Assembly (NCBI RefSeq): GCF_018127805.1
Contig: NZ_CP072334.1
Coordinates: 2,496,309-2,560,308, forward strand
Direction: 5' to 3'
DNA length: 64,000 bases
Origin: Prevotella sp. oral taxon 475
GTDB taxonomy: Bacteria; Bacteroidota; Bacteroidia; Bacteroidales; Bacteroidaceae
Positions 6,041-61,901 of the stretch are shown here, piece by piece. The notes beneath the pieces were generated by a model that saw nothing but the letters and a program-made list of their open reading frames with translations, had not been told where the DNA came from and searched no databases. The stretch's first letter is position 1, and each line of letters begins with the position of its first letter. The translations under genes and the position numbers were made by a program.

Positions 6041-6123
6041 CAAAAGCTTAGCTTTCACATCCCAAAAGCTAAGAAAATGCAATGCAAAAGCTAAGAGATG
6101 GCTGTGCCATCTCTTAGCTTTTA
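6041..6123. repeat. Interspersed CAAAAGCTAAG repeat cluster A with hairpin
   Basis: The cluster contains one palindromic unit (CAAAAGCTTAGCTTT), direct units around AAAAGCTAAGAAAATGC, and a final pair forming a perfect 17-bp hairpin (6086-6102 with 6106-6122, loop TGT) followed by TT. It lies between the convergent helicase and S46 peptidase genes, so the hairpin could end transcription from both sides. It is one of eleven related clusters in this window. The rest of the gap 5986-6252 shows no gene. Confidence 0.9.
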
Positions 6124-6252
6124 AAATATCTTTTATAACCACCTGTATTTCAAGGGCTTGCCAAGCTGCATACGTTCGTCCGCTAAGCAGGAGCGAAACG
6201 GGCGGTATCTGCCGCCGCACAAACCCTTTGAGGACGGAGGGAAAATACTTGT

Positions 6253-8364
6253 TTAGAGTCCCATCTCGCGCAACAGACGGTGGGCATGGCCCCATTTGTC
6301 CATCATGAAGAGCACGAAACGAATGTCGACACCGATGCAACGAGCCAGTCGGGCGTCGAAGTTGATGTCGCTCGAGAGGCTGTCCCAATTGCCGTCGAAA
6401 GCCAAACCGATGAGTTCGCCCTTACCGTTGAACATGGGCGAACCGCTGTTTCCGCCGGTGATGTCGTTGTTGGTGAGGAAGCAGAGATGCATTTGACCCG
6501 TTGTTTTGTCGGTATATCGACCGAAATCGCGGGCCGAGAGCAGTTCTTTCATGATGGGTTCGGCCTCGTAGTCGGTGATGTGTGCCGCGCGATTCATCTT
6601 CTCGACGATACTCTCGGGGGTGGTATAATAGCCCGAGGGCTTGCCGCCGAGCTCGAATTCCTTCACCTGTCCGTAGCTCAGACGCATGGTAAAGTTGGCG
6701 TCGGAGTAGTGAGGCAGGTCGGCTTCCATCCGCAATTTAGCCGCACAGAGATAGCGTTCTTGTGTCTCGATGGAATCGTTGATGGCCCCCATTCCCTCGT
6801 TGAGATCATAGAAAACATCCATCACGTCTTGTCCGAAACGCACACCGGGATCGGCTTTGTAGGCTTTGGTGTTGTAATAGAGCTTCGCCCCCTTCTTCAT
6901 GAGCAGCGAACGGGTGTAGAGATAGTCGACAAAGCGGGTGTAGTCGCCCTCGAAACGGGTGTCGATAGTGGTGTAGAATTTAGGCAGATAGCGGGCATCG
7001 ACATGCTCACGGTAGTTCTTGAGAAGGACAGAAAGCACCTCACGGTCGAGCGCAGCGTCCCATTCGTTGCTATTGTCGGCAAAAGAATGATATTTTTTAG
7101 CTGCGTTTTTCTTCGGTCCTTTCACCTCCATGCCCGTGGCAAGTTGCATGGCACGGGTAGAGAACTCATTGGTTCGGCGGAAGGTTTCGCGCCAATACAT
7201 CATCGTTCGCACCCGCTCCTGCCGGCGGGCATAGAGCTTTTCGAGCAGCGGAAAACTGAGTTGGCCCTTGAGAAAACCTGTAGAGTCTTGCCATTGACGG
7301 AGCCGTGCCTCGTAATCGCGCTTCTGTTGAATGATGCCTATCGAGTCGATACATTTGTTCATACCGATAGAGTTTTTCCAATAGTTGGCACTTTGGGCAA
7401 ACTTCGAGTCGTATTTGATGCGCACAGCCTCGCTGGCACGCATGTATCGGCGCATCACTTCCTGCTTCACTCCTCGCACTTGGGCACGCGGAGTGTTCTC
7501 TGCGTCGCGCCGTTCGACAATGCCATAACTCGAGATATAGCGGCTGGTGCTGCCCGGATAGCCCATGGTCATGGCGAAAGAGCCGACCTGATAGCCCTCA
7601 AGTGATGGGCGTGCCCAGTGCTGCGGGTGGTAGGGCACGTTGTCTTTCGAGTAAGCTGCGGGACCGTTTGTCTTGGGATCGGCATAGATTCTAAACACGG
7701 AGAAGTCGCAAGTTTGGCGTGGCCACATCCAGTTATCGGTCTCTCCGCCGAACTTTCCCATCGATTTGGGCACGGTGAAGACCAGTCGCAGGTCGGTGAA
7801 ATCTTGGTAGACGGTGGCGTAATGCCGGTTTCCTTCGTAGAAAGGGTCGATGTCTACGTGCAGCGTAGGGTCGATTTGCCTAACAGAATCGGTGAGCGCA
7901 CGCTGCAAAGAGTCGACCATCGCCGCCTGTTGGTCCTTTCCGCAGCGGCTATATCCTAAACTTTCGAGCTGCGGGGTGACATCTTTCTGCTCGCGCATAA
8001 AGCTCACAAACATATCTTTGTTGGGCAGTTCGTCGGCCAAGGTTTTGGCAAAGAACCCGTTCAACATATAATCGTGCTCTACGGTAGAGTGGCTTCGGAT
8101 GGCTTCGAAGCCGCAATGATGATTGGTAAAGACGAGTCCGTCGGGCGAAACAACTACTCCAGAGCAATATCCAGAGAAGTTAACCACGGCGTTTTTAATA
8201 GCGTCTTTGCTCTCATAAAGGTCGCGATAGGGCAACAAGAAGCCTTCGCTTTGCATCTGTCGGTACACTGCTTGCGGCAGATTGTACAACGTCCACATGC
8301 CCTCATCGGCCTTAACGGTACCGAATGTCATGAGGGCGGCAATGAGTAATGTCGATTTTTTCAT
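6253..8364 (-). CDS. S46-family dipeptidyl-peptidase (DPP7/DPP11 type)
   Basis: The 703-residue protein starts with a signal peptide (MKKSTLLIAALMTFGTVKA) and has the two hallmark S46 motifs: TNHHCG with the catalytic His near residue 84, and GGNSGSP with the nucleophile Ser near residue 641. A C-terminal VDIRFVLFMMDKWG segment is typical of the family. These periplasmic enzymes remove dipeptides from oligopeptides and feed amino-acid fermentation in Porphyromonas and Prevotella. I could not place the specificity residue (Gly in DPP7, Arg in DPP11), so no symbol is given. The frame is open to 8541, but that N-terminal part translates repeat DNA; ATG 8364 just before the signal peptide is the likely start. 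Confidence 0.9.
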   Translation of the reverse strand: MKKSTLLIAALMTFGTVKADEGMWTLYNLPQAVYRQMQSEGFLLPYRDLYESKDAIKNAVVNFSGYCSGVVVSPDGLVFTNHHCGFEAIRSHSTVEHDYMLNGFFAKTLADELPNKDMFVSFMREQKDVTPQLESLGYSRCGKDQQAAMVDSLQRALTDSVRQIDPTLHVDIDPFYEGNRHYATVYQDFTDLRLVFTVPKSMGKFGGETDNWMWPRQTCDFSVFRIYADPKTNGPAAYSKDNVPYHPQHWARPSLEGYQVGSFAMTMGYPGSTSRYISSYGIVERRDAENTPRAQVRGVKQEVMRRYMRASEAVRIKYDSKFAQSANYWKNSIGMNKCIDSIGIIQQKRDYEARLRQWQDSTGFLKGQLSFPLLEKLYARRQERVRTMMYWRETFRRTNEFSTRAMQLATGMEVKGPKKNAAKKYHSFADNSNEWDAALDREVLSVLLKNYREHVDARYLPKFYTTIDTRFEGDYTRFVDYLYTRSLLMKKGAKLYYNTKAYKADPGVRFGQDVMDVFYDLNEGMGAINDSIETQERYLCAAKLRMEADLPHYSDANFTMRLSYGQVKEFELGGKPSGYYTTPESIVEKMNRAAHITDYEAEPIMKELLSARDFGRYTDKTTGQMHLCFLTNNDITGGNSGSPMFNGKGELIGLAFDGNWDSLSSDINFDARLARCIGVDIRFVLFMMDKWGHAHRLLREMGL

Positions 8365-8493
8365 ATGTAATTGGTTATGATTTCTTTGAGGAGTGAAAGG
8401 AGTAAAAGAGTGAAAGGAGTAAAGACGTATGTAATTGGTTATGATTTCTTTGAGGAGTGAAAGGAGTGAAGGAGTGAAAGGAGTAAAGACGTA
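8363..8493. repeat. Two-copy 66-base direct duplication upstream of the S46 peptidase
   Basis: The segment beginning TATGTAATTGGTTATG and ending GTAAAGACG occurs twice in tandem, at about 8363-8428 and 8429-8493. The copies differ by a few bases in the GAGTGAAAGGAGT part. The first copy touches the peptidase start codon, so the duplication doubles whatever upstream signal it contains. No clear TAnnTTTG promoter was found in it. Confidence 0.8.
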
Positions 8494-8543
8494 TGTCTTA
8501 TTGTTTGAGTTGTCATGCTCCATCATACAGAAGAAGCTCATGT

Positions 8544-8799
8544 CTTGACTTCTTTCACTCCTCCACTTCTTTCACTCCTGGATTTGTCTTCACTCCTTCC
8601 ACTCCTCCACTTCTTTCACTCCTGGATTTGTCTTCATTCCTTTCACTCCTCCACTCCTTTCACTCCTGGATTTGTCTTCACTCCTTCCACTCCTCCACTT
8701 CTTTCACTCCTGGATTTGTCTTCACTCCTTTCACTCCTTCACTTCTTTCACTCCTGGATTTGTCTTCACTCCTTTCACTCCTCCACTTCTTTCACTCCT
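8544..8799. repeat. 44-base tandem repeat (minisatellite)
   Basis: The unit begins GGATTTGTCTTCACTCCTTT and its GGATTTG start recurs at 8580, 8624, 8668, 8712 and 8756, giving five full 44-base units plus a partial unit before 8580. Because 44 is not a multiple of three, the overlapping open frames shift between copies and are not real genes. The unit is made of CACTCCT words, the complement of the AGGAGTG words at 8390-8490, so the two regions could pair. It fills the gap between the flippase stop (8813) and the peptidase. Confidence 0.92.
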
Positions 8800-8812
8800 A
8801 AAAATATCTTCT

Positions 8813-10276: not shown

Positions 10277-10380
10277 TGTTGCAGGATAAGGGTTGAAAAG
10301 GGAGGATCGGCGGTTGCAGAATAAGGAAATCGAACACCGCACCTATCTCTCTGATTATCAGTTTCTTACAAACTACATTT

Positions 10381-10464
10381 CAAAAGCTTAGCTTTTGCAA
10401 GCCATTTTCTTAGCTTTTGGAAGGCGTTTTCTTAGCTTTTGCACGCCGAAAGCTTAGCTCTTGC
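10381..10464. repeat. Interspersed CAAAAGCTAAG repeat cluster B
   Basis: Four units: a palindromic CAAAAGCTTAGCTTTTG, two inverted units (TTTTCTTAGCTTTTG) at 22-base spacing, and a diverged AAAGCTTAGCTCTTG. It lies between two minus-strand genes, upstream of the flippase and downstream of the SpmA-SpmB gene. Nothing else was seen in 10277-10517. Confidence 0.9.
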
Positions 10465-10517
10465 CCATCGGTCTGTCGATTTTACTGCGTTGACCATCAT
10501 GATTCACGTGTTGGTTG

Positions 10518-11750: not shown

Positions 11751-11779
11751 CTTCTTGCTGTTTTGCTGTTAGGGAAAAT

Positions 11780-11860: not shown

Positions 11861-14352
11861 ACCTTTGTTCTTCTGTCTTTAATCAGTTGGATCTGCTGCA
11901 ATAAGTCTTTGATGTGCAAAGCCTGAATTCCCGAAGCCGCAGACATCTGCCCTTTCAAATAATTCTCCAGCTTATCAAGATGCGCAGCCACATAAAGCAA
12001 CGCGTCGCTGTTATAAGCCGCAGCACTGCGACCTGCCTTATCTTTCTCCGTTGGGTTGAGCAATCGATTCAGATTCTCCACATACTGCCGTTGTAAAGCT
12101 CGCCGCGTGATGTTCTTCATCTCGTCGGCCGCATTGGCAGAAGTCCATACTTGCGCAAAGAGATCATTCAGATAGTCGGGCAAACGATAGGCCTTTGCCG
12201 AGCGTTGCGAGTCGTTATAAATAGTATTGAGCATGGCAGCCGTCATCGTTACGTCCAAAACCGACTTCTGAAGTGTGTTGAGTTCGCCCTGAACATCAAT
12301 GCCCGTCTTCTCCGTTATCGCCATGGGGTAGAGCCAAAGCGGAGCATCGAACACCTGTCGGCCCAGATATTCGAGAGCCTCCTTCTGCTTCTTGGCCGGT
12401 GCTATCTCGTAAGGAGCTCGTCCAGGCAGGTTGTTGAGGTATCGTCCGCCTAAGTTTTTCATCACATGCCGCATGTAACGGGTAAACTGTTGACGAACGT
12501 TGGCATACATTTCTCTAAGATGATCGTACCGTCCGTTGGTTTGTTGCGTCCACACGGGCAAGCCAGCCACCACACGTTTGAGGTTTTTCACCCCATAGTC
12601 GCTGGCTTTTACATTGTCGTCGCCCAAGTCTTCGGTTTGCGCACGCGGGTCTTCGTTCTTGCCTTCGCCGCCGAACCACAAGCGCGGATTTTGCGAAAGG
12701 ATAGCCGTCGTCTCGGTCATGAGCTTCTCTTTCTCCTCAAACTCATCTTTAAATTCAGGTCGATACTGATAGCCCCACTTAATGGCCCACTTGTCGTAGT
12801 CGTTGATTCGGGGGAAGAGACCTTGCTCTCCGATGTGGTCTTCGGGCTGAGCCACGTAGTTGAATCGGGCATAATCCATGATCGAAGCCGTGTGTCCGTG
12901 TTTCTCCACCCAAGCCTTATCGCGTAGTTTCTCAACAGGCGTAGCGTGACTGGCGCCCATATTGTGACGAAGGCCCAAAGTATGGCCCACCTCGTGCGAG
13001 GAAACAAAACGGATCAGCTGCCCCATCAGCTTCTCATCGAAGTCCATTTGCTGCGCACGTCTGTCCAATGGACCGCACTGCGTCATGTACCACTTCGTCA
13101 AAAGGTTCATCACATTGTGATACCAACAGATGTGACTCTCGATGATTTCGCCGCTACGAGGATCTTTTACATGAGGTCCGTAAGCATTCTCGGCCTCCGA
13201 AGGCAAGTAGCGCAGCACGCAATAGCGAGCGTCGTCCAGGCTCATGGTCGGGTCGTTGGGCCACTCTTTGCCCACGATAGCATTCTTAAAGCCGGCCGCT
13301 TCGAAAGCAACGTTCCAGTCATTGATACCTTTTATCAGATAGGGCACCCACTTCTTGGGCGTGGCCGGGTCGATATAATAGACAATAGGTTGAACGGGCT
13401 CCACCAGTTCACCGCGCAAATACCTCTTGACATCTTTCGGAACCAGTCGGTAACGCGAGATAAACAACTCGCGTTGACTTTTGTGTTGCCGGTCGGAGAA
13501 GAGCGTCAGAGGCGTTGTGAAATAGCCTACGCGCTCGTCCCACAGTCTTCTTCGCATCGGTTCTTTGGGCAACACGACGATAGAAGTATTCAGAGCGAGC
13601 GTCAAACTCCCCGTGCCCGATGCCCGTGACGTACCAATCGTGGCACCATAGGTGCGTGTCGTCATCACCTCCACATTGATCGGATAAGTCTTGATGGTGT
13701 CTACAAAGGTGCGATCGGTCTGTTGTCCGCTCAACTTAGCTTTGGTTGCAATCCGTTTATTGATGCCGACGATGTTGTTGTCTCGCACAAAAAACGAGGT
13801 CACATCAATGAGATTCATCCCCGGATGAGGGTTTTTACCGATGACAGGAAAGGCTGCCACGATAGGATCGGCCGTGCTTTGCTTGAGCGTTTGGTAAATG
13901 CGGTCGTTCGAATTGGCCTCTTGTGTGCGCACGAAAGCCCTGAGCAGCATCGTCTTCTCGTCGCGTTTCTCGAAGTAGACGGTCTCATCGTTCACCTTCT
14001 CTCCACTGAAAACGCCGAAACCTTGCGGCACACTGGCAAAGCGGGTCACAGCCAAGAGATAACGACCGATGAGCGAATCGGGCACCTCGAAATACCATTT
14101 ATCTTTGATATGCCGAACGGTGAACAAACCTTTCACCACCGTTCCGCTGTCTTTCATCAATTTTTCATACTCGTTTTCCTTTTTCTTCGCCTCGACAGCA
14201 GGTGCTTTTTTCGCGCCCGCACTGTCTGTTTTGGTCGTCTGGGCCGTCGTATCGTTCTGTGCCACCGACTCTTTTACGCTCCCGGCATAAGCCGAACAAG
14301 CCAGAACCACTACCGAAAACGCCACCGCCCACTTCTTGTTGATATGCATCAT
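11854..14352 (-). CDS. Secreted zinc-dependent metalloprotease (DUF5117/DUF5118 type)
   Basis: The protein of about 832 residues has a signal peptide (MMHINKKWAVAFSVVVLACSAYAG) and a low-complexity linker rich in Thr, Ala and Lys. A large N-terminal domain precedes a metzincin-like zinc motif HEVGHTLGLRHN near residue 452. This arrangement matches the Bacteroidota 'zinc-dependent metalloprotease' family with DUF5117 and DUF5118 domains. It is probably periplasmic or surface-exposed and degrades proteins for nutrition. The frame is open to 14463, but that extension has no signal peptide at its front; ATG 14352 (or the adjacent 14349) places the signal peptide first and follows an AAGG stretch. 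Confidence 0.88.
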   Translation of the reverse strand: MMHINKKWAVAFSVVVLACSAYAGSVKESVAQNDTTAQTTKTDSAGAKKAPAVEAKKKENEYEKLMKDSGTVVKGLFTVRHIKDKWYFEVPDSLIGRYLLAVTRFASVPQGFGVFSGEKVNDETVYFEKRDEKTMLLRAFVRTQEANSNDRIYQTLKQSTADPIVAAFPVIGKNPHPGMNLIDVTSFFVRDNNIVGINKRIATKAKLSGQQTDRTFVDTIKTYPINVEVMTTRTYGATIGTSRASGTGSLTLALNTSIVVLPKEPMRRRLWDERVGYFTTPLTLFSDRQHKSQRELFISRYRLVPKDVKRYLRGELVEPVQPIVYYIDPATPKKWVPYLIKGINDWNVAFEAAGFKNAIVGKEWPNDPTMSLDDARYCVLRYLPSEAENAYGPHVKDPRSGEIIESHICWYHNVMNLLTKWYMTQCGPLDRRAQQMDFDEKLMGQLIRFVSSHEVGHTLGLRHNMGASHATPVEKLRDKAWVEKHGHTASIMDYARFNYVAQPEDHIGEQGLFPRINDYDKWAIKWGYQYRPEFKDEFEEKEKLMTETTAILSQNPRLWFGGEGKNEDPRAQTEDLGDDNVKASDYGVKNLKRVVAGLPVWTQQTNGRYDHLREMYANVRQQFTRYMRHVMKNLGGRYLNNLPGRAPYEIAPAKKQKEALEYLGRQVFDAPLWLYPMAITEKTGIDVQGELNTLQKSVLDVTMTAAMLNTIYNDSQRSAKAYRLPDYLNDLFAQVWTSANAADEMKNITRRALQRQYVENLNRLLNPTEKDKAGRSAAAYNSDALLYVAAHLDKLENYLKGQMSAASGIQALHIKDLLQQIQLIKDRRTKVN

Positions 14353-14677: not shown

Positions 14678-14760
14678 CGAAAGCTAAGAAAACGCAGGCT
14701 AAAAGCTAAGAAAATGAAATGCAAAAGCTAAGAAAACGCTGTGCGTTTTCTTAGCTTTTG
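14678..14760. repeat. Interspersed CAAAAGCTAAG repeat cluster C with perfect hairpin
   Basis: Three direct units (GAAAGCTAAGAAAACGC, TAAAAGCTAAGAAAATG, CAAAAGCTAAGAAAACGC) are followed by one inverted unit. The last pair forms a perfect 18-bp stem (14722-14739 with 14743-14760) with a TGT loop, the same loop as in cluster A. It sits between two minus-strand genes. Confidence 0.92.
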
Positions 14761-21321: not shown

Positions 21322-21370
21322 TTCGATTTATTTTTATGTTGTACTTGATCTTTCTAACTTCCGTATTCTA

Positions 21371-21473
21371 TTTTCTTAGCTTTTGCAGGCCATTTTCTTA
21401 GTTTTTGGCGTGCGTTTTCTTAGCTTTTGGGTTGCATTTTCTTAGCTTTTGCAACACGCTTTCTAAACGTTTG
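21371..21473. repeat. Interspersed CAAAAGCTAAG repeat cluster D
   Basis: Four same-orientation units (TTTTCTTAGCTTTTG type) recur at an exact 22-base period from 21371, followed by a diverged fifth unit ending near 21473. The 4-5 bases between units differ each time. It lies in the 237-base gap between the SusD and downstream lipoprotein genes, which are on the same strand. Confidence 0.92.
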
Positions 21474-21558
21474 ATTTTCAACTGTTTAGAAGTAGACATC
21501 CCAACGCGGGCAAAAAACCGCCTCGGTGCTGCTTCGAAGGGCTTTGGAGTGGGGAGCT

Positions 21559-27221: not shown

Positions 27222-27307
27222 TGCCAAAGCTAAGAAAACGCGATGCGAAAGCTAAGAAAATGAAGTGCCAAAGCTAAGAAAACGGCATGCGTTTTCTTAG
27301 CTTTGGC
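27222..27307. repeat. Interspersed CAAAAGCTAAG repeat cluster E with hairpin
   Basis: Three direct units (CCAAAGCTAAGAAAACG, GAAAGCTAAGAAAATG, CCAAAGCTAAGAAAACG) are followed by an inverted unit. The last pair forms a perfect 18-bp stem (27267-27284 with 27290-27307) with a 5-base loop. The unit carries a co-varied change: CCAAAG on one arm is matched by CTTTGG on the other. Confidence 0.92.
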
Positions 27308-27368
27308 AAGGCTCTTTGTAAGTGGCTGAAAATAAATAGGTTGCCAAGAAGCTTCGAACCGAGAAGCC

Positions 27369-28886: not shown

Positions 28887-28975
28887 TTCCCATCTCTTAG
28901 CTTTTGGGGTGCATTTTCTTAGCTTTCGCCCTGCGTTTCCTTAGCTTTTGAGGTGCAAAAGCTAAGAGATGGGAA
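28887..28975. repeat. Interspersed CAAAAGCTAAG repeat cluster F with terminal inverted repeats
   Basis: The outermost units form perfect 20-base terminal inverted repeats (28887-28906 and 28956-28975) containing CATCTCTTAGC and its complement. Two internal units (TTTTCTTAGCTTTCG, TTTCCTTAGCTTTTG) lie between them at 22-base spacing. The cluster lies in a divergent gap between hsp20 and the hydrolase gene, so it is not simply a terminator. Confidence 0.92.
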
Positions 28976-38561: not shown

Positions 38562-38645
38562 CCCATCTCTTACCTTTTGCATTGCATTTTCTTAGCTATT
38601 GGGTCGCATTTTCTTAGCTTTTACGTCTCATTTTCTTAGCTTTTG
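38562..38645. repeat. Interspersed CAAAAGCTAAG repeat cluster G
   Basis: Four same-orientation units: CATCTCTTACCTTTTG, then TTTTCTTAGCTATTG, TTTTCTTAGCTTTTA and TTTTCTTAGCTTTTG at 22-base spacing. It begins with the CATCTC flavour that marks the edge of several clusters. It lies 112 bases before the CRISPR array. Confidence 0.9.
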
Positions 38646-38756
38646 AAAATCATCTCCTCTACACTTGATTCTCAAGCATCTAACATCCCTATCTTGGTTG
38701 ATCACTTCTTGTCGTATACTTCATCTCACTTTGATTCCTCTTCAAATCTATTCGTA

Positions 38757-40511: not shown

Positions 40512-43500
40512 TTAATCATTAACAATTTCACCTAGTAGATCTATCTTTATTTTATGTGGGTTTTTATCAAAGAAAGCCTGAAAACTTTGAATATTAAAGA
40601 ATCTCTTGTCTGGTTTATTCATTCTTTTTGAGTCGAATATAGTCGTTGTAGCGAGGCAAAAACGATAAACCATACTTGAAATATTTTGTACGACATAGAG
40701 ATTTTTCCCCAATGCAATATAGTCTTTTTCAGCCATCGCACGTTGATAATCGTCTTCCTCCATTCCTAAAATAAAAGATTCATTCTTTTGCATGCTTACA
40801 ACAAATGTCCATTCAGGTTCAGGAAATGTTTCTAAAACAGATGGTGGGATTTGTTGTTGCGAACCGTTAGAAATTGCTTCCCATAATGTTGAAGGTTGCT
40901 CTATAATAACAGGAATACCATACCTCTTCCTATTTACTGCTTGCCAGAAAGTAACGATGATTTCATGATAATTCCCCTGCCTGTCTCTATAAATTGCAAC
41001 ATGATGGTTATTTCCTGTTTTTACAAAACCAATAGCTTGCCCTTTTTCATTATAACGTAGAGGCACTACTGCAGACAGTCCGGTACGACATCGTACAGAT
41101 TTGATAGGAATCTTACAAGCATCATCAGCATATAATGGATGATCGTCTAAATTTCTCAGATTGTTCAATGCCTTTTTGGGATCATTTCTATAGTCTTTAC
41201 CCTCAGGAAATCCAATATTAAGACGTTGCTTGATTCGGTTTCTTATATTTCCATCAACAATACTCATAAGTGTATTCGCAATATCGTCTTTTACCTTAAC
41301 CTCATCTAATCCCGTTTTTCTATTGGGTTTGATTGTTTCTTCATAAGTCTCCTTCCCGGTAAAGACAAATCCTACAGCGCCCACTCCTAATTTATATTTT
41401 AGAACATAGCTCGGGTTCAAATCTCCTTGGATTTTAATCTTTCCATACACAGAATCTTCATGCAACACACCTCTTGGAATAAGAATTCCTCTTTGAACCA
41501 CTTCCCTTTTCCTTTTAGAGTACACTGCTCGAGTTCCCGGAGAAGTAATTTTTCTATTGACTTTATAAGATACCAACGTCTTTGCAATCGCCCTTTGAAC
41601 TTCTTCTACACTAAAATGTTTCAATTCACGCAGCCATTGTTCTAACAAAGAATAATCATCCCGCCATTCCTTTTTTTCACTTTCCACTTCTTGATACATC
41701 TCATCACGACATGTATTCAACGTATTAAGGCGCTGAATCACAGATTGTTTTGTCATAGCAATAACCAAGGCATCTATGGCATGATGGCGATGATCCAAAC
41801 GTTTACTCCAACCAGAGATTACCTCTCTCTCATGCTTGCTACCTCGATGTTCAAACTGAACGATTTCAGTAAGTCCGCCTTGTTTATATCGATTAAAGTT
41901 CAACTGATGTAAGATAGTATCATACCCCCAAGTATGTCTGATAAAACTGGTGACATGACCTGATGTTGCCGTTACATCATAACAAATCTTTTTCAGCAAC
42001 TCCATTGCTTTTCGGGAAATATACTGTGTCTGTCTGAGATCTCTATTTATAAAATCCTGTGGTATATCTTCTGATTTCATTAAGAGTCGATCCATTTTTG
42101 TCTTGCTTATTTTTCCCTCGTCATAAAGCATTTTAACTACATTTAAGTAGACTTCAAACCGCTCTTCACCCAGTGAACTTACATACTCATAAGCAGTTCT
42201 CCGCCCTTTCTTTCTATTGCACTCTCTGCAAGAGCATGTTTTATTTGAATAGCTATTATCAAAGAGCAAGGCCTTAGGAATAATGTGTTCTGTTTCTACT
42301 TCTCCTCCACGTAAAAATTCATTCAGATTAATTCCGTTACCACAATACATACATCTCTCTCCTGTCTCTTTCCAAAGACGATACCTTTCCAATCGATTTT
42401 TAGTAGGGGGTATTTCCTTCTCTTCTAAAATCTTACTATCTCTTTTCTTCTCTTTCTCCCGAGCGGCAATACCATCACTCATCAATTTTCGCTCCTCTTT
42501 ACTTTGTTTTAATTCACGCGCAAGCTCCACTCTAATCGTGTCAGGCCTACCGTATTTAAGAATAATAGCATTGACTACATTAATCATCTGATTAAGAATT
42601 TTCTCTACAATGGGTTGTCGAAGTTCATTCTTACGGATAGGAGGCAGTTTGTCTAATAGCGTTCTTTGCATATTTTCTTCCTTCGTCAAGCTGTTCGAAT
42701 GATTGATTCCGATATATTCACATGCCTCATTATACTTCAATCCTGCCTGCAAGTAAGGCAAAAGACGCCTGATCACTTTTACAGATTTATTGCCGTAACC
42801 ATCTTTCGTAAAATCTATATTATACAACATATTTATAGTTGTATCATCCTCTATCCTAAAGTTTTTCCGCAGAGTGTCTCTCAACTGTTTTTTATCCTTA
42901 ATAGAGTATATCGCATGCCATAAACGGTACAAAGGCTGTTCGATACAATCCGGATTCACAACTTGCAACAACTCTCCCGTCACCTCATCGCATACAACGG
43001 TTGACAGGTTATTCAACTCGAATCTCAACAATTTCTCACTATCCTCAATTCCTTCAAGAGCCTTTTGTAGTTGAACAAATGTTTTATTGCCCTTAAGCCC
43101 TCTTTTTATCGCATCATTGGCAGACCATCCATCTCGTTTACTAATCCCGAGAATCTTGTAAAGCACAGTCAGTCTGAGTATTTCATGCGTATTTAAATAA
43201 TTAAAGAGTTCTCTTTTCTGGGCAAGAGTAATTTCTAACTCCTCACCTTTCTTATTACGTAAAGAAATATTATTCACTTCCTCCCATATCTTCTCTATCT
43301 GATAGAGAGGATTAGACTTAGCTGCCACCTTAGGTCCATTATAGAAAACCTTTCCTTTTTCATCCTTATAGGGCTTTCTTTCAAAGTCACACACAGAGAC
43401 AAGGTGTTTACACGACTTGCCATGCCTTTGATAAAAGATAATATAATTGCGCAATTTGTCAATCACTTTATCTGTAAGTAGCTCTGGGTAAAAATTTCTC

Positions 43501-44144
43501 TGACATTCTATCACTCGGTCAAACTCCTCTTCATAAGCCTCACGAGGAAACACCTGATCTTTGATTCGGAAAGTATAGAAAACTCCTTTCTCCGAAGTAA
43601 CAGCAGTTTCTTTCAATTTCAAAGCAAAATATTGACCAATCGTTTGCTGCTGTTCTTGTATCATAAGATACCGTGCATTGACCGCTTTTACATATTCTTT
43701 TTGCTTACTATCTGAAGAAACATCCGACTTTGCGTGTTTATAGCCCCGTCTCTGGTTGATATGATATAACACTCTACCTATCTCACCCAAAGACAGTTTC
43801 ACACCTTCTGTAGCTGCATTTGCCCGCAACTGCCACAAATCAAGTACAGGTAGTTTGATTAATGCTTCATTAGGCATCATCCCCAAGTGTCTTAACTCAG
43901 CTGTCAGAGCCTCTCGTCGTTGCACATATCTAAAATAACCTTTACGAATTGTCTTTGCCTTGGTCTTTTTCTGATTTAAAGTACAAGTTGCACCTGTGGC
44001 AAATTCTTTTGAATTGTCTGGATCTATAGATACAATTCTCTCCCCTAACGCCAGAATTTTTATGGGTTCACCATCATCTGTCGTAAAGATAAGTGCCCAT
44101 CCTATAGAGGCAACACCTAAATCTAAGCCTAGAATTATTTTCAT
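40512..44144 (-). CDS. cas9: CRISPR-associated endonuclease Cas9, subtype II-C
   Basis: The 1210-residue protein has RuvC-I (ILGLDLGVASIGWAL, Asp8) and an Arg-rich bridge helix (about residues 61-80). RuvC-II is IRVELAREL (Glu540), the HNH domain has TEHIIPKAL with His620 and Asn634, and RuvC-III is HRHHAIDALVIA (His788, Asp791). The HNH domain is flanked by C598-x2-C601 and C639-x2-C642, a probable zinc site. All catalytic residues are present, so the nuclease should cleave DNA guided by crRNA and tracrRNA. It is shorter than the roughly 1,400-residue Cas9 proteins I recall from many Bacteroidota. The gene is visibly more AT-rich than its neighbours. cas1 and cas2 follow on the same strand. 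Confidence 0.97.
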   Translation of the reverse strand: MKIILGLDLGVASIGWALIFTTDDGEPIKILALGERIVSIDPDNSKEFATGATCTLNQKKTKAKTIRKGYFRYVQRREALTAELRHLGMMPNEALIKLPVLDLWQLRANAATEGVKLSLGEIGRVLYHINQRRGYKHAKSDVSSDSKQKEYVKAVNARYLMIQEQQQTIGQYFALKLKETAVTSEKGVFYTFRIKDQVFPREAYEEEFDRVIECQRNFYPELLTDKVIDKLRNYIIFYQRHGKSCKHLVSVCDFERKPYKDEKGKVFYNGPKVAAKSNPLYQIEKIWEEVNNISLRNKKGEELEITLAQKRELFNYLNTHEILRLTVLYKILGISKRDGWSANDAIKRGLKGNKTFVQLQKALEGIEDSEKLLRFELNNLSTVVCDEVTGELLQVVNPDCIEQPLYRLWHAIYSIKDKKQLRDTLRKNFRIEDDTTINMLYNIDFTKDGYGNKSVKVIRRLLPYLQAGLKYNEACEYIGINHSNSLTKEENMQRTLLDKLPPIRKNELRQPIVEKILNQMINVVNAIILKYGRPDTIRVELARELKQSKEERKLMSDGIAAREKEKKRDSKILEEKEIPPTKNRLERYRLWKETGERCMYCGNGINLNEFLRGGEVETEHIIPKALLFDNSYSNKTCSCRECNRKKGRRTAYEYVSSLGEERFEVYLNVVKMLYDEGKISKTKMDRLLMKSEDIPQDFINRDLRQTQYISRKAMELLKKICYDVTATSGHVTSFIRHTWGYDTILHQLNFNRYKQGGLTEIVQFEHRGSKHEREVISGWSKRLDHRHHAIDALVIAMTKQSVIQRLNTLNTCRDEMYQEVESEKKEWRDDYSLLEQWLRELKHFSVEEVQRAIAKTLVSYKVNRKITSPGTRAVYSKRKREVVQRGILIPRGVLHEDSVYGKIKIQGDLNPSYVLKYKLGVGAVGFVFTGKETYEETIKPNRKTGLDEVKVKDDIANTLMSIVDGNIRNRIKQRLNIGFPEGKDYRNDPKKALNNLRNLDDHPLYADDACKIPIKSVRCRTGLSAVVPLRYNEKGQAIGFVKTGNNHHVAIYRDRQGNYHEIIVTFWQAVNRKRYGIPVIIEQPSTLWEAISNGSQQQIPPSVLETFPEPEWTFVVSMQKNESFILGMEEDDYQRAMAEKDYIALGKNLYVVQNISSMVYRFCLATTTIFDSKRMNKPDKRFFNIQSFQAFFDKNPHKIKIDLLGEIVND

Positions 44145-44438: not shown

Positions 44439-44522
44439 CAAAAGCTTAGCTTTTGTGCTGCGTTTTCTTAGCTTTTGCCGTGCATTTTCTTAGCTTTTGC
44501 ACCTCAAAAGCTAAGAGATGGC
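44439..44522. repeat. Interspersed CAAAAGCTAAG repeat cluster H
   Basis: A palindromic CAAAAGCTTAGCTTTTG unit, two inverted TTTTCTTAGCTTTTG units, and a final CAAAAGCTAAGAGATGG unit in opposite orientation. It is followed by an unassigned stretch to 44706. The gap 44281-44706 otherwise shows no gene; it separates tracrRNA from the convergent dps gene. Confidence 0.9.
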
Positions 44523-49607: not shown

Positions 49608-49721
49608 ACGTTAAGTATTGAGTTGCAAAGGTGTGGATGTCCCGAGAAGAGCGGTTTCATCCGGGGCTTTTCAGACACGCCTCGCAAGTGTTTGATTTTC
49701 AGTTGCTTATAAAACACTTTC

Positions 49722-49826
49722 TCATCTCTTAGCTTTTGCATCGCGTTTCCTTAGCTTTTGAACTGCATTTTCTTAGCTTTTGCAGGTCGTTTTCTTAGCT
49801 TTTGCACATCCCAAGCGGAGAGATGG
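49722..49826. repeat. Interspersed CAAAAGCTAAG repeat cluster I
   Basis: Four same-orientation units starting CATCTCTTAGCTTTTG and continuing at 22-base spacing, ending with a diverged inverted end (AAGCGGAGAGATGG) that matches the CATCTC start in complement. It is inserted in the 228-base gap between two co-directional genes of the second M16 locus. Confidence 0.92.
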
Positions 49827-52530: not shown

Positions 52531-52533
52531 TTT

Positions 52534-56096: not shown

Positions 56097-56255
56097 ATAA
56101 AAAAAGCGTTCGGGTGTTATATATATGCCAATTTTATGCAAAAATTTCACCACTTTCTTCTTTTTTATGTAAAACTGGGGCGTTTTTCATTTCTCGTCTT
56201 TCTATTGTCAAGGGGACTTTTCGGAGGAAAGATGCTCCCTATCAGATGAAAAAAA

Positions 56256-56342
56256 CCTATATATAATAAGGTGTAAAAAGCGGTCCACTTCACTCCTCTA
56301 TCTCAACGGCGGTGAAAAGCCCCTATATATAATAAGGTGTAA
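56256..56342. repeat. Pair of 21-base direct repeats in the divergent SusC promoter region
   Basis: CCTATATATAATAAGGTGTAA occurs at 56256-56276 and again at 56322-56342, 66 bases apart, each preceded by a TGAAAA-rich stretch. They lie between the -7 elements of two divergent SusC genes, so they may be regulator-binding sites. The rest of the gap 56005-56836 shows no gene. Confidence 0.75.
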
Positions 56343-56456
56343 GATGAGCCCGTCGCCTCTATTGTCTTCTCCATAGCAGGCAACCGCTTTTCCCATGGAC
56401 AACGATTGTTTTCTCCACGCCGAACGGCGGATGGCTCCGCGTTGAGTGTTCGTCCT

Positions 56457-56546
56457 GCAAAAGCTAAGAAAACAGCTTGCAAAAGCTAAGAGATGACAGG
56501 ACAAAAGCTAAGATAACAAGATGCAAAAGCTTAGCTTTTGCATCTC
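56457..56546. repeat. Interspersed CAAAAGCTAAG repeat cluster J
   Basis: Three direct units (CAAAAGCTAAGAAAACAG, CAAAAGCTAAGAGATG, CAAAAGCTAAGATAAC) are followed by a palindrome GATGCAAAAGC-TTA-GCTTTTGCATC. It lies in the divergent gap between two SusC genes. Confidence 0.9.
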
Positions 56547-56735
56547 GAACGTTCAAGCATCTGACTATCAACGCTTTGCAAGGAGACGAGGGCCGACCGA
56601 AAAACATCCTTCCATTCTGCCCTACCCTGCATCCCGAAAAAGGGAAAACAAAAGGCTGAAAACCCGAAAAACAGACAAGTTTTGCCCGCGAAGCGTTAAA
56701 ATAAGAAAAAAAACAAATAATTAAAAATAAAGCCA

Positions 56736-56743
56736 TAAATTTG
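56736..56743 (+). promoter_or_regulatory. -7 promoter element of the third SusC gene
   Basis: TAAATTTG matches TAnnTTTG, with a start point near 56750 and a leader of about 87 bases. The upstream 40 bases are very A-rich, and no TTTG was found at -33. Confidence 0.6.
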
Positions 56744-56836
56744 CAACAGTTCCCGTTCGTGAGGGCGAGAACGAATACCAGACAAATAAAAATTAACAAA
56801 CTAAACAATCCATCAACCATCTAAAGCGTGAAACCA

Positions 56837-59800
56837 ATGAGAAAAACAAATGCGCAAAGGATGCTTATCTTGGCGTTGCCGCTCTTGTGTTGCTCTTTTT
56901 CTGCACAACAGCTTGCCGCCAAACCCTTGACTGTGTTACAGCAAGAGGCATCGAAGTTGAAAGGCAAAGTGGTCGATTCGCAAACCGGGGAACCGCTCCC
57001 CGGAGCCTACATCACCGTTGCCGGAACAAAGAAAGTAGCGGTAACCAATGCCGATGGCGAGTTTACGCTGGCGGCAAAACCGGGAGACGAACTCGTCGTT
57101 ACGTCACTGGGATATGAAAAAATGCAGGTTCGGGCCGCACAACATCTCTCCATCAGCCTCGTCTCTACAGCCACGATGATTGGCGAAACGGTGGTCGTGG
57201 GCTACAATACGCAAAAGCGCAACTCGCTGACAGGGGCTCTCCAAACCGTGAGCAACAAAGATCTGACCAACATCACCACGGCTAACGTCACGAATATGCT
57301 CTCGGGCAAGGTGACAGGACTCAACGTGGCACCGGGCTCCGGACAACCTGGTGCCTTCGGTGCCATCGTCGTTCGCGGTAAGTCTACTATCAACGGAAGC
57401 ACCGCTCCGCTATGGGTCATCGACGGTGTGATCGTAGGAAAAGACCCGGGAGACATCAATCCCAACGACATCGAGACGCTCACTGTACTCAAAGATGCCG
57501 CCTCTACGGCGATATACGGTTCGCAAGGAGCCAACGGTGTCATCGTGATCACCACCAAAGGGGCACAGGCTGGCAGGACGAGCATCAACTTTTCGGCCAA
57601 GGCGGGCTTGTCTACGCTGAACAACGGAAAGGTGAAAATGATGAACGGTGCCGAACTTTACGATTATTATAAGTCGTTTACCAACGTCTCGGAGATTGCC
57701 TTCCCGCGATGGAACGACAAACTTCGCGACAGCAATTTCGACTGGTGGAAACTGGCTTCGCACACTGGTTTCGTGCAAAACTACGACCTCGCGGTGAACA
57801 GTGGCGGCGAAAAGCTGAGTGCGATCTTTACCGGCGGCGTATATAAAGAGAACGGTGCCGTGCGCGGATACGACTATACACGCTACAACACCATGGTGAA
57901 GCTCAACTTCCGGCCCTACTCCTGGGTGTCTATCCGCCCGGCCCTGAACGGCAGCAAGAGCTTGATCGACGACCGTCAGCGGTCTACCGATGCCATGTAT
58001 TCGATGTTGCCGTGGGACAGTCCTTACGATGCCAACGGCAAAATCGTGGGCAACAAGTCGTCTTCGTGGGTCAACAGCAATTCTACCAACTATCTTTACG
58101 AACTGCAATACAACTGGAGCAAGTATGATTCTTACGCCTTTAACGGTAGCTTCGACTTCGATCTGTATCTCACCAACTGGCTCACTTTCTCGTCGGTGAA
58201 CAGCTATCGCTGGAAGACCAACCTGGATAAGACCTATACCGACGCACGAACATCGGGCGCAGAGGGGAAAGGCCGCGTGAGCGAAAGCACCAGTACAAGC
58301 ACCCGCCGCTATACCAACCAGTTGCTGAAAGCCACTCGCAACTTTGGCAACTATCACGGATTCGCTCTGCTGGGCTATGAGTTCAACGACGGAGAATACC
58401 GCCATCATGGCGGCGAAGGTACGGGTGTGGTGCCTGGTTTCTCACAGTTGGACATCACGTCGACACCCGAATCGGTGAGCGGAAACAAGTATGAATGGGC
58501 CGTTCAGTCGTTCTTCGCCAACATCAACGCCGACTACGACAACAAATATCTGCTGCAACTCTCCCTCAGAACCGACGGAGCCAGCAACTTCGGCTCTGAT
58601 GCTGCCTACGGAACGTTCTTCTCTTTGAGCGGCGGATGGGTGGCAACGGCCGAGAAATGGTTCAAAGTGCCCTGCATCGACTATCTAAAGGTGCGTGCTT
58701 CTTATGGCTCTGTGGGTAGCCGACCTAACAGTTTGTATCCTCAATACAGCCTTTACAATCTGGAACAAAGCTATAACGGGGTGCCGGGAGGTGTCATCTC
58801 GCAGCTGGAAAACAAAAAACTCACCTGGGAAAAAACCTATACTGCGGGGCTGGGACTGGACTTAAACATGTTCCATCGCCTGCGGATGACGTTCGATTTC
58901 TATCGCAAACGCACCAATAACCTGCTCTTTGCCGTGCCCATCTCGGGCGTAATGGGCGTGACAAGCATCTGGCAGAACATCGGAGAACTTACCAATACGG
59001 GCTTCGAAACGACGTTCTCGGCCGACATCATCAAGCAGAAAGACTTCACTTGGACCTTCGATGCCAACCTCTCGACCAACTCTAACAAGATCAAAAGACT
59101 CTACAACGGCCGCGATCAGATTATCGGAGACGACGGAATTGCCGGTTCTACCCATACCTTATTAAAGCCGGGACTCAGCGCAGACACCTATTATCTGCGC
59201 GAATGGGCGGGCGTTGACCCTTCCAACGGTGCTCCCTTGTGGTATACAACCGATGCCAGCGGCAACCGCGTTACCACCAATTCCTATGCCAAGGCAGACC
59301 AAGTGGCGCTCAAGCAGCATGCTTCGCCCAGCGTCTTCGGTAGCTTCTCGACGACGCTCACTTACAAAGGGTTCGACCTGAACGCTGTTTTCGGCTACTC
59401 ATTGGGGGCCAGCATCTACAACTATTCTCGTCAGGAGTACGACTCAGACGGAGCTTACACCGACCGAAACCAGTTCCGTTTGCAGAAAGGATGGAGCCGT
59501 TGGAAGGCCGCTGGCGACCATGCCACGCATCCAGTAGCCTCGTATAACAATTCATCCAACTCGAATAAAGCTTCTACACGCTACTTAGAGAGTGCCGACT
59601 TCCTGAAACTTCGCTCCGTAACCTTGGGCTATAACTTCCACCTAAAGAGCTCTATCGTCAAGGCCTTGCGCCTCTATCTGAGCGCAGAAAATCTCTTCTG
59701 CATCACCGGTTACTCGGGTGTTGACCCCGAATTGCCCGCTGCCGACAGTGGCCGCGACACTTCAGGAGAACGTTCTACGGCTCTTTCCATCTCCACCGGA

Positions 59801-59857
59801 TCGGGTGTTTATCCCTCGGTACGTAAGTTCATGCTCGGTGTGAACGTAACCTTCTAA
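56837..59857 (+). CDS. SusC/RagA-family TonB-dependent transporter, third locus
   Basis: The 1006-residue protein has a signal peptide, a CarboxypepD-reg-like domain (LKGKVVDSQTGEPLPGAYITVAGTKKVAVTNADGEF), and a plug with VVRGKSTING, LWVIDGVIVG and VLKDAASTAIYGSQGANGVIVI. The long beta-barrel ends MLGVNVTF with a terminal aromatic residue. There is no STN domain. It works with the SusD partner 14 bases downstream. The ligand is unknown because no hydrolase, protease or sulfatase gene is linked on this side. ATG 56837 is preferred over GTG 56828 because the Bacteroidota-like signal peptide follows. It is divergent from the STN-containing SusC gene. Confidence 0.92.
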   Translation: MRKTNAQRMLILALPLLCCSFSAQQLAAKPLTVLQQEASKLKGKVVDSQTGEPLPGAYITVAGTKKVAVTNADGEFTLAAKPGDELVVTSLGYEKMQVRAAQHLSISLVSTATMIGETVVVGYNTQKRNSLTGALQTVSNKDLTNITTANVTNMLSGKVTGLNVAPGSGQPGAFGAIVVRGKSTINGSTAPLWVIDGVIVGKDPGDINPNDIETLTVLKDAASTAIYGSQGANGVIVITTKGAQAGRTSINFSAKAGLSTLNNGKVKMMNGAELYDYYKSFTNVSEIAFPRWNDKLRDSNFDWWKLASHTGFVQNYDLAVNSGGEKLSAIFTGGVYKENGAVRGYDYTRYNTMVKLNFRPYSWVSIRPALNGSKSLIDDRQRSTDAMYSMLPWDSPYDANGKIVGNKSSSWVNSNSTNYLYELQYNWSKYDSYAFNGSFDFDLYLTNWLTFSSVNSYRWKTNLDKTYTDARTSGAEGKGRVSESTSTSTRRYTNQLLKATRNFGNYHGFALLGYEFNDGEYRHHGGEGTGVVPGFSQLDITSTPESVSGNKYEWAVQSFFANINADYDNKYLLQLSLRTDGASNFGSDAAYGTFFSLSGGWVATAEKWFKVPCIDYLKVRASYGSVGSRPNSLYPQYSLYNLEQSYNGVPGGVISQLENKKLTWEKTYTAGLGLDLNMFHRLRMTFDFYRKRTNNLLFAVPISGVMGVTSIWQNIGELTNTGFETTFSADIIKQKDFTWTFDANLSTNSNKIKRLYNGRDQIIGDDGIAGSTHTLLKPGLSADTYYLREWAGVDPSNGAPLWYTTDASGNRVTTNSYAKADQVALKQHASPSVFGSFSTTLTYKGFDLNAVFGYSLGASIYNYSRQEYDSDGAYTDRNQFRLQKGWSRWKAAGDHATHPVASYNNSSNSNKASTRYLESADFLKLRSVTLGYNFHLKSSIVKALRLYLSAENLFCITGYSGVDPELPAADSGRDTSGERSTALSISTGSGVYPSVRKFMLGVNVTF

Positions 59858-59871
59858 AAAGATTTTGCCTT

Positions 59872-61623
59872 ATGAAAAAGATCTATATGCTGCTTGTTGC
59901 AGCAGCCACACTGGTTTCTTGCAGTGTGGAACGCCATCCTGAATACATGATGGACGGCGATAAAGTGAGCCATGACGTTGAAGGCACCTTCCCGACACTG
60001 CTCAACGGCTGCTACGGATACCTCAAAACATGGTCGGACCCGATGTATCGCTGCGGCGAATATGCGGGCGACAACATGATGATTCGCGGTACTTCTACCG
60101 ACGCTTTCTACGAGTTCATCTCTTATTCGCGAACGCCCAACAACTACCGCCTGCAAAATTTCTGGGATTATAGCTATAAAGTGATTGCCCAGACGTCGAA
60201 CATTATCAAGTCGACTGCCGAAGGACAGAGTACCACCACCGACACTCAGCTGGGCGAATGCTACTATCTGCGGGGCATGCTTTACTTCTATCTCTGCCGT
60301 GCCTACGGTCGGCCGTATACCCAAAATCCGGAAACACACCTGGGAGTGCCCATCGTCAACGGTACGCCCGACGACCCTGCCAACGCCCAACTGCCCGATC
60401 GTGCCACCGTCAAAGAGACCTATGCTCAGGCCATCAGCGACCTGGAGAAGGCTGCTTCCTTGATGACGGAAGAGATTCATCCCGGCGAGAAGTGCATCTT
60501 TGCCTCTAAAGAGGCCGCTTGGGCCATGCTCAGCCGCATCTATCTCTACATGAGTGGAACCTACGACAGCCCCAATGCCACGTTTGCCAAGAAGAGTGCA
60601 GAGTATGCCACAAAGGTAATCAACTCGGGAAAGTTCAGCTTGCTGAGTCGAGAAGACTACGGAAAGAGCAACATGCTCGACCCGGAGAACAACTCGGAGA
60701 ACATCTTTGTAGTCAAGCGCGTTGAGAGTGAGTACTCCGGTTGGGACTATTACTACACCATCGGGGGTATGTATTCCAACATCGGAGGTATGGGATGGGG
60801 CGAGATGTATGCCTCTGCCAAATACTTAGACCTGCTCAACGAGACGGGACAAAACAACTGGTTCAAAAAAGAATACACCGACATCAGAGCCAAATTCATC
60901 GAACCGCAATACCGACAGGAGGGCAATGCCTACACGCCCGTTTTCCGTTTCATCAAGAAAGTCTTCGACAGCAATGGCACACAGGTGAACTTCAACTACG
61001 TGCAATTCCGCTATACGAAACACAGCGACGGAACCATCACTTGCGACACCACCGAAAATAAGGTAAAGAAGTCTTATCTGCTCACCCCCATCAACGCTGC
61101 GCAAAGACTCTATTCCATCACCTACGACGGCAACACCTACCAGGGTGTGCTCGACTATGAAATGAAACTCAACCGCGTATATCCCATGTTCTACGTCGTG
61201 AAATGCTCCCGACAGGGTGGCGGAGAGAACCAACTCTACTCTCCTATCATCTCTCGCCTCGACGAGATGTACCTCAATCGGGCCGAGGCCAACGTGAAAC
61301 TGGGCCAGATATCGGCCGCCATGACCGACGTGAACACCATCCGCAGCAGAGCCATCATCGGCGGAGCATACACCGCAACGCAGTTTACTGCCGCTACGGC
61401 AAAGGCTCTTGTCGACAAGGAACGGCAACTGGAACTGGCCTTCCAGGCAGAACGCAGCTACGATGTGTTCCGCAATGGCGACGTGCTGACTCGTCGTTTC
61501 CCCGGCCCGCACAAGCCGATGGTAGACGTTCCGGCCACAGACTATCGCGTGGTTTACTTCATTCCGCAGTCGGCCATCAATGCTTATAACGGCACGCTGA
61601 CCCAAAATCCCACGTCCAACTAA
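59872..61623 (+). CDS. SusD/RagB-family nutrient-binding lipoprotein, third locus
   Basis: The 583-residue protein has a lipoprotein signal (MLLVAAATLVSC) with lipidated Cys17 and the SusD pattern FPTLLNGCYGYLKTWSDPMYRCGEYAGDNMMIRG. TPR helices include GECYYLRGMLYFYLCRAYGRPYTQNP. The late conserved segment is RLDEMYLNRAEANVKLGQISAAMTDVNTIRSRA, and the C-terminus has ELAFQAERSYDVFRNGDVLTRRF. It should cap the SusC channel at the cell surface and bind the ligand. The pair is isolated; downstream there is a terminator and repeat cluster K. The lack of linked enzymes leaves substrate type open. Confidence 0.92.
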   Translation: MKKIYMLLVAAATLVSCSVERHPEYMMDGDKVSHDVEGTFPTLLNGCYGYLKTWSDPMYRCGEYAGDNMMIRGTSTDAFYEFISYSRTPNNYRLQNFWDYSYKVIAQTSNIIKSTAEGQSTTTDTQLGECYYLRGMLYFYLCRAYGRPYTQNPETHLGVPIVNGTPDDPANAQLPDRATVKETYAQAISDLEKAASLMTEEIHPGEKCIFASKEAAWAMLSRIYLYMSGTYDSPNATFAKKSAEYATKVINSGKFSLLSREDYGKSNMLDPENNSENIFVVKRVESEYSGWDYYYTIGGMYSNIGGMGWGEMYASAKYLDLLNETGQNNWFKKEYTDIRAKFIEPQYRQEGNAYTPVFRFIKKVFDSNGTQVNFNYVQFRYTKHSDGTITCDTTENKVKKSYLLTPINAAQRLYSITYDGNTYQGVLDYEMKLNRVYPMFYVVKCSRQGGGENQLYSPIISRLDEMYLNRAEANVKLGQISAAMTDVNTIRSRAIIGGAYTATQFTAATAKALVDKERQLELAFQAERSYDVFRNGDVLTRRFPGPHKPMVDVPATDYRVVYFIPQSAINAYNGTLTQNPTSN

Positions 61624-61661
61624 GTCTGCTCTCAGACGCATCCGTCTGTCTGTATACCACC

Positions 61662-61712
61662 AAAGCCACCCCGGAGAGTGTCCTTACCGGTTCTTTCCAG
61701 GGTGGCTTTCTC
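61662..61712 (+). terminator. Terminator of the third SusC/SusD operon
   Basis: AAAGCCACCC at 61662-61671 pairs perfectly with GGGTGGCTTT at 61700-61709 around a 28-base loop that can fold further (CGG with CCG), followed by CTCTTATT. It lies 38 bases after the SusD stop. Confidence 0.75.
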
Positions 61713-61810
61713 TTATTCTGCATCGACAAATCGCCGTTTTTCCCTCTCAAAACAAGATCATTCAAAACGCACCTCTCATCTTCTGATGATCCGTCGCTCC
61801 AGATAACGCT

Positions 61811-61901
61811 TTGCAAAAGCTTAGCTTTTCAGTTGCGAAAGCTAAGAAAACGCAAGGTAAAAGCTAAGAAAACGCAAGGCGAAAGCTTAGCTTTCGCAAA
61901 A
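61811..61901. repeat. Interspersed CAAAAGCTAAG repeat cluster K
   Basis: It starts with palindromic CAAAAGCTTAGCTTTTC, contains two direct units (GAAAGCTAAGAAAACGC, AAAAGCTAAGAAAACGC) and ends with palindromic GCGAAAGCTTAGCTTTCGC. It lies in the convergent gap between the SusD and RNase H genes. Nothing else was seen in 61713-61962. Confidence 0.92.

Follow-up and report, generated by a model that had tools for sequence, protein, structure and literature searches.

The window analysed here, a 64,000-nucleotide stretch of the genome of Prevotella sp. oral taxon 475, forms the end of a single contig of 2,560,308 bases and holds 11 arrays of a short palindromic repeat (Table 1). The arrays, noticed earlier in a sequence-only reading, are real: the core CAAAAGCTAAG, with at most one mismatch, matches 49 times in the window, compared to a mean of 1.32 and a maximum of 5 in 100 dinucleotide shuffles. 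Inside the arrays lie 48 of these 49 matches, the remaining one being a lone match at 13735. The units follow each other at exactly 22 bp, as claimed, and inverted units close the arrays at 6.1, 14.7, and 27.3 kb as described. A scan of the window for tRNA found none.

Beyond the window, the same genome was sampled in 40 evenly spaced 20-kb stretches which, together with the window, amount to 864 kb (34% of the genome). This sample contains 71 arrays, 57 with four sites (slots), seven with five, four with three, two with two, and one with six, where some five-slot counts include a weak outer slot belonging to the flank. The 60 arrays in the 800 kb outside the window extrapolate to ~198 per 2.56-Mb genome, and array density in the window is about twice that of the rest of the sample. 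By our own simple gene calling, all 11 window arrays lie in intergenic gaps. The earlier statement that they are never in genes thus stands for the window but not for the larger sample, where 69 of the 71 occupy gaps, one lies inside a predicted open reading frame, and one is at a stretch edge. The genome contains 339 exact AAAGCTAAG pairs spaced 22 bp apart, 193 on one strand and 146 on the other; 29 relatives together contain one.

Slots, half-sites, and flank motif

Each slot spans 17 bp and consists of a left half, a TAA or TTA centre, and a right half, with a 5-bp spacer between neighbouring slots. Among 63 aligned four-slot arrays, mean identity between copies is 97% in the core, 79% in the left arm, 59% in the right arm, and 39% in the spacers; the last value necessarily matches what column composition predicts and is usable as a level only. 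Right-arm identity is low because this arm takes three forms. With nearly free spacers and a 97% identical core, the resident copies consequently look constrained.

Read toward the centre, the half-sites are L (CAAAAGC), A (CGTTTTC, reverse complement GAAAACG), and B (CCATCTC, reverse complement GAGATGG), and each slot pairs an L half-site with L, A, or B. The two unit flavours reported before are real, but better described by these half-sites. A slot-based tally is partly circular, with slots picked by their L-type core. Free of this choice, a scan of the 864 kb for 17-mers with a T(A/T)A centre and any pair of L, A, or B halves, allowing at most one mismatch in each half, returned 230 17-mers, comprising 128 L-A, 64 L-B, and 38 L-L pairs and not a single A-A, A-B, or B-B pair. 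All but two (228 of 230) lie at most 70 bp from an array. In the slot-based tally, the A half is outermost in 5 of the 71 arrays, while L and B are commonly found in this position.

Outside the slots, a palindromic flank motif resembling TGATTATCA...CTTACAAA appears symmetrically in the column counts of the aligned arrays, its dyad located 33 bp from the centre of the first or last slot. Read from the alignment columns, the dyad centres fall at -25, 8, 30, 52, 74, and 107, with all distances being multiples of 11 bp, and the conserved span including flanks covers ~150-165 bp. As a general insertion target, the flank motif is unsupported: in the DNA sample of this genome, the strict pattern occurs seven times near arrays and never elsewhere, the relaxed pattern ten times and once, respectively. 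Curvature from phased A-tracts suits this family but neither of two families in other species of the genus (congeners G135 and G300), and was dismissed as a common principle. On the right side of 12 of the 63 aligned arrays, a purine-rich imperfect tandem tract (TAAGGAGAGAAGTAG-like) begins at the array end (e.g., L033 319005 and L029 2260269); in the chosen orientation, such tracts are mostly on the right and in few cases on the left.

In a longer array at C1:60958-61076, several successive spacers are identical, which suggests that units were amplified recently. Two arrays separated by 770 bp (C1:1887211 and 1887980, stretch L026) have the left flank and first spacers in common, and one therefore seems to be a recent copy of the other. 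Additionally, the genome carries about ten arrays of minor 22-bp families, among them a second, CGGGAGATGACCTCCCG-like family and others (genome coordinates L013 262317, L014 382345, L030 2390946, L037 813351, and L039 1081106).

The 22-bp frame in other genomes and related repeats

To compare genomes irrespective of letters, we used a lag scan, which records self-resemblance of DNA at a given shift and is blind to sequence; shifts of 15 to 33 were compared. The 864-kb sample yields 73 arrays at lag 22, at most ten at any other lag, and six at lag 23. In 19 congeners (1016.7 unique kb), 63 arrays are found at lag 22 and at most seven at any other, with 11 of the 19 genomes positive; seven of the eight congeners without lag-22 arrays were sampled at 6-20 kb and one at 40 kb. 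Three more congeners, picked as carriers of tnaA, contribute 14 arrays in 100 kb, three in 60 kb, and two in 40 kb, such that the pooled 22 congeners (1217 kb) contain 82 arrays at lag 22 and nine at the next lag, with 14 of 22 genomes positive. Neither 200 kb of E. coli nor 272 kb from ten genomes of other families of the same order contains a lag-22 array.

While the frame recurs, the site letters differ, reading TTCCA..TGGAA in G300 and TTCCC..GGGAA in G135. One congener, G321, harbours at least four 22-bp families; further families coexist in G096 (stretches L328 and L329), for example repeated AAATATGACGTCATATTT sites. The dyad score of congener arrays is 14.4 of 22 compared to 11.8 in shuffled sequence, 30% of 69 arrays reaching p 0.05 individually; here some arrays are counted twice owing to overlapping stretches, whereas the lag-scan counts use unique DNA. 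A pattern scan of named genomes returned at least 119 stretches. Among the matches listed, 59 of 80 titles are Bacteroidota, including Prevotella brunnea, Bacteroides, and Mediterranea, and others resemble unrelated tandem repeats. The P. brunnea arrays have both core and flank motif in common with the family described here. Three matches in viral contigs were discarded, as they appear to be a single chance match shared by related contigs.

Turnover of copies was followed over 100 kb of shared chromosome in four close congeners (G157, G359, G143, and G321). For seven of the eight G157 arrays, an array occupies the same gap in G359. Orthologous arrays carry 64 substitutions in 1390 positions and their flanks 529 in 6688 (Fisher p 7e-6); in 14 of 16 comparisons, covering eight of the nine G359 arrays (one has no match), the array evolves more slowly than its flanks, and no gap column occurs inside arrays. 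One family is represented by 112 exact site pairs in G321 compared to 37, 40, and 30 in three near relatives. Many of the G321 pairs have identical spacers which, together with their excess, points to recent spread. The gap orthologous to that of array 9 is nearly closed in G300, G380, and G185, the nearest three congeners as judged by the neighbouring protein, while G135 and G321 contain arrays of other sequence at this place. Thus, new copies appear, pass to descendants, and seem to persist under constraint.

The closest published relative is PINSR of Prevotella intermedia, reported in 2015 as a 188-bp intergenic repeat judged non-coding, with 177 and 184 copies in two strains (PMC4755523). 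According to the part of that report available, it is specific to its group, being present in four species only, has about three quarters of its positions common to the two strains, is also located downstream of tnaA, and is of unknown function. PINSR and our arrays are both intergenic and lineage-specific, with ~180 copies reported for the former and ~198 extrapolated for the latter, whereas the accessible PINSR description mentions neither an internal 22-bp structure nor terminal inverted repeats. In the tnaA-positive congener G096, an array of four 22-bp units lies downstream of tnaA within a repeat that recurs at eight more places in the 100 kb sampled, with matches 195-288 bp long. The site letters of our family differ from those of this PINSR-like family. 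Among 30 tnaA loci of ~4.4 kb each, seven have a lag-22 array within 1.5 kb, on the downstream side in two (G096 and G059). Further, tnaA scores above the cut-off in 66 of 398 congeners and is not specific to the group, and the single tnaA carrier among the 24 genomes first searched shows no array at its tnaA locus. The identification of the G096 repeat with PINSR consequently depends on location, length, and copy number in combination. On this basis, we regard PINSR as a probable sister family belonging to the same class, which qualifies the earlier remark that no named family was recognized. A literature search covering few subscription journals found nothing closer on the 22-bp frame or PINSR.

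Similarity to the BrickBuilt MITE (miniature inverted-repeat transposable element) of Porphyromonas gingivalis lies in the short tandem unit within an interspersed intergenic element with flanks; as far as its accessible description goes, BrickBuilt has 1 to 22.8 copies of a 23-bp unit, a long leader and tail, IS5-like ends, and 19 genomic copies (PMC4596501). Our arrays differ in pitch (73 arrays at lag 22 versus six at lag 23), mostly consist of four sites, and have a short palindromic flank. The same source mentions, without locations in the part consulted, 22-nt tandem repeats in P. gingivalis W83, which may be related to the arrays (PMC4596501).

Bacterial interspersed mosaic elements (BIMEs) are a class of intergenic palindromic repeats akin to repetitive extragenic palindromes (REPs) and REPINs. 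The arrays resemble REP/REPIN systems with their REP-associated tyrosine transposases (RAYTs) which, in the portions of the literature available, likewise form intergenic palindromic populations that persist in the genome and differ between lineages (PMC3116915, PMC8049555, PMC3733652). Unlike REPs, BIMEs, and REPINs, the arrays have no RAYT tied to them, follow the helical pitch, mostly contain a fixed number of sites, and can be all-direct. A hairpin-forming palindrome, expected in every REPIN or BIME copy, is absent from 19 of the 71 arrays. The earlier label of a BIME- or MITE-like family places the arrays in the right neighbourhood of interspersed intergenic repeats; neither a cognate RAYT nor a hairpin in every copy was found.

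Interpretation and alternatives

We consider the chances to be about even that the arrays are once-mobile, non-autonomous intergenic elements acting as phased DNA-binding platforms. Each cluster would be one copy of a small element whose four 17-bp sites all face the same side of the helix, the 22-bp pitch corresponding to two turns. A palindromic flank motif would accompany the sites on one side or both, its dyad three turns away from the outer site. A sequence-specific, dimer-type protein would read this element as double-stranded DNA, requiring an L half-site and accepting L, A, or B in the other half. Copies would spread in bursts, mobilized in trans, and then be inherited vertically, while purifying selection would keep them as binding platforms and lineages would carry different site sequences on the same frame. 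Directly observed are the pitch, the number of sites, the half-site grammar of this one family, the occurrence in multiple families, the array positions common to close relatives, the slower evolution relative to flanks, and the intergenic location, while protein binding, mobilization in trans, and any host benefit are inferred. Among the three roles proposed earlier, a non-autonomous mobile repeat, mRNA 3'-end protection, and binding sites, the tests favour sites for a DNA-binding protein.

Several points weigh against this reading. The half-site grammar was counted in one family alone, and the flank motif, although resembling a terminal inverted repeat in column counts by its inverted symmetry, can be made out clearly on only 45 of the 142 array sides with a score trained on the same flanks. 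The lag scan ignores dyads, and some of its matches are thus other 22-bp repeats; moreover, several families per genome would need several proteins or one sequence-tolerant protein. The literal letters are no genus trait, since the core GCT(A/T)AG, required three times at 22 bp, has 222 matches in this genome but only a few in 11 of 99 other congeners, compared to 5 of 100 genomes matched by the reversed control. Array sharing drops with distance, the eight G157 arrays being matched in G143 for four and in G321 for three (lag scan). The rate difference between arrays and flanks is modest, its 16 comparisons are non-independent as all share G359, the flanks include coding DNA, the length filter removes large indels, and homogenization between copies could yield the same difference. 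Neither a readable target-site duplication nor a clean filled/empty boundary was found in the compared gaps. Finally, no binding protein or mobilizing enzyme was found, and no search for a Noc- or SlmA-like protein was made.

The arrays might instead be purely selfish, MITE- or REPIN-like elements, in which the slots serve as recognition sites of a transposase acting in trans, the host draws no use from them, and conservation merely reflects that intact copies moved. This account, which we regard as possible yet doubtful, fits the intergenic and lineage-specific occurrence, the burst-like copy numbers, the near absence of exact pairs from relatives, the inverted flank motifs, and the nearly closed gap at array 9. 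It fits less well with nearly free spacers around a 97% identical core and with the slower evolution of orthologous arrays compared to their flanks. Moreover, no gene family recurs beside the arrays: none of the Pfam families inspected matches more than two of 112 flanking genes (of 136, those at cut ends or outside 60-700 amino acids having been dropped), although a single transposase could have remained unseen, as 25 of 166 families were inspected. The two Y1 transposase genes (Y1_Tnp) of the genome (L051, C1:42770-46111, and L052, around C1:1098172) are both embedded in a different REP family with a hairpin around CAACCGCGTAGCGGTTGGTCTGTT; 22-bp arrays occur from ~520 bp for one gene, while none lies within ~1.4 kb of the other. 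These genes and the CAACCGCGTAGCGGTTGGTCTGTT repeat are a probable REP/RAYT system distinct from the arrays, and a RAYT was consequently ruled out as their partner, which answers the earlier suggestion to look for one.

A more specific host-function version of the binding platform has the arrays organize the chromosome, as dyad sites that are dense at the origin and sparse at the terminus, similar to the sites of nucleoid occlusion factors (Noc, SlmA) or other nucleoid factors. Its appeal comes from a density gradient: sampled stretches near the contig ends, in the middle, and far from the ends (13, 13, and 14 stretches) contain 29, 19, and 12 arrays, a 2.6-fold decrease (Spearman -0.50, p 0.001), while arrays of exact pairs in successive bins of the first 1.23 Mb number 33, 19, 18, 10, and 7, corresponding to 132 to 31 per Mb or 4.3-fold. 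Up to 1.39 Mb, 16 of 23 sampled stretches have a positive GC skew, and beyond that point 15 of 18 have a negative one; this sign change suggests a terminus near 1.4 Mb and an origin near the contig ends. SlmA sites are described as more abundant near the origin in the part of that report available (PMC4117426). We nevertheless judge this version unlikely, given that origin and terminus derive from sampled skew only, that the gradient is known from this one chromosome, where the minor families are too few and not visibly clustered near the ends, that replication dosage or insertion bias could also create it, and that fast sequence turnover is unusual for such sites. A role at the RNA level, with hairpins acting in 3'-end protection, attenuation, or termination, is less probable still. 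The 52 arrays with an inverted or palindromic slot do fold well (mean z -4.7 versus base-shuffled DNA), but the 19 all-direct arrays show no unusual structure (mean z -0.74); RNA hairpins are thus common but not required, and conserved RNA structure was discarded as a general feature. The earlier statement that structure is conserved fails on the same 19 arrays and on the facing non-L halves, which are mismatched A/B pairs in 3 of 11 cases. In addition, the 69 gap arrays, 39 in co-directional, 18 in divergent, and 12 in convergent gaps, display no detectable orientation bias relative to gap length (chi-square p 0.32) and no bias for 3' ends, which disfavours mRNA 3'-end protection and removed a terminator or promoter role by gap orientation from consideration. 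In co-directional gaps, the median distance of the array is 245 bp from the upstream gene and 213 bp from the following one, and the window has no Rfam match at gathering scores. The geometry, finally, is strikingly close to that of plasmid iterons bound by a Rep_3-type initiator, as site length, number, and phasing resemble the 17-bp iterons of RK2 and the 22-bp iterons of R6K and pPS10, with four in F and pPS10, in the part of the source available (PMC4980987). We hold such an identity to be extremely improbable: slots occur in both orientations, many copies are scattered between chromosomal genes, and a Rep/iteron origin was rejected for lack of any Rep3_N match in this genome, while five of the nine genomes searched have one.

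Relatives carry the same design in different letters, a pattern that speaks for a widespread and little-described kind of element and not for an isolated repeat, and the data suggest that PINSR is one among many sister families in the genus that use a single frame. More tentatively, Prevotella and some neighbouring Bacteroidota genera may carry a class of chromosome-organizing platforms that co-evolve with a family of DNA-binding proteins, in which letters turn over and the frame persists (four dyad sites, 22-bp pitch, free 5-bp spacers, and a primary-plus-secondary half-site grammar). As species share the frame and not the letters, co-variation offers a route to the reader protein, and mobility can be distinguished from host use. 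Should the gradient seen from the contig ends reflect the origin, ~200 phased arrays would provide a handle on the organization of such chromosomes.

Positions of the arrays in the window

Table 1. Arrays and flank motifs in the 64-kb window (window positions).
Feature	Position	Strand	Basis
Array 1, 4 slots (LL, LA, LB, BL)	6041..6123	+	core matches, slot parsing
Diverged flank motif, right of array 1	6124..6160	.	flank score 31.3
Flank motif CTGATTATCAG...CTTACAAA adjoining array 2	10350..10380	.	flank score 33.0
Array 2, 4 slots	10381..10463	-	core matches, slot parsing
Array 3, 4 slots, last inverted	14678..14760	+	core matches, slot parsing
Array 4, 4 slots, all direct	21369..21451	-	core matches, slot parsing
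Array 4 flank motif; part also parsed as weak fifth slot	21452..21492	.	flank score 39.4
Array 5, 4 slots, last inverted	27224..27306	+	core matches, slot parsing
Flank motif, right of array 5	27307..27340	.	flank score 33.3
Array 6, 4 slots, outermost half B at either end	28890..28972	-	core matches, slot parsing
Array 7, 4 slots, all direct	38563..38645	-	core matches, slot parsing
Array 7 diverged flank motif	38646..38680	.	flank score 19.7
Array 8, 4 slots	44439..44521	-	core matches, slot parsing
Flank motif TTTGATTTTCAG...CTTATAAAAC, left of array 9	49691..49721	.	flank score 39.7
Array 9, 4 slots, all direct	49722..49804	-	core matches, slot parsing
Array 10, 4 slots	56458..56540	+	core matches, slot parsing
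Array 11, 4 slots, first and last palindromic	61814..61896	+	core matches, slot parsing

Array 8 lies just upstream of a gene for a Cas9-like protein of 1210 amino acids with RuvC_III and HNH_4 domains, located on the minus strand at window positions 40512-44144.

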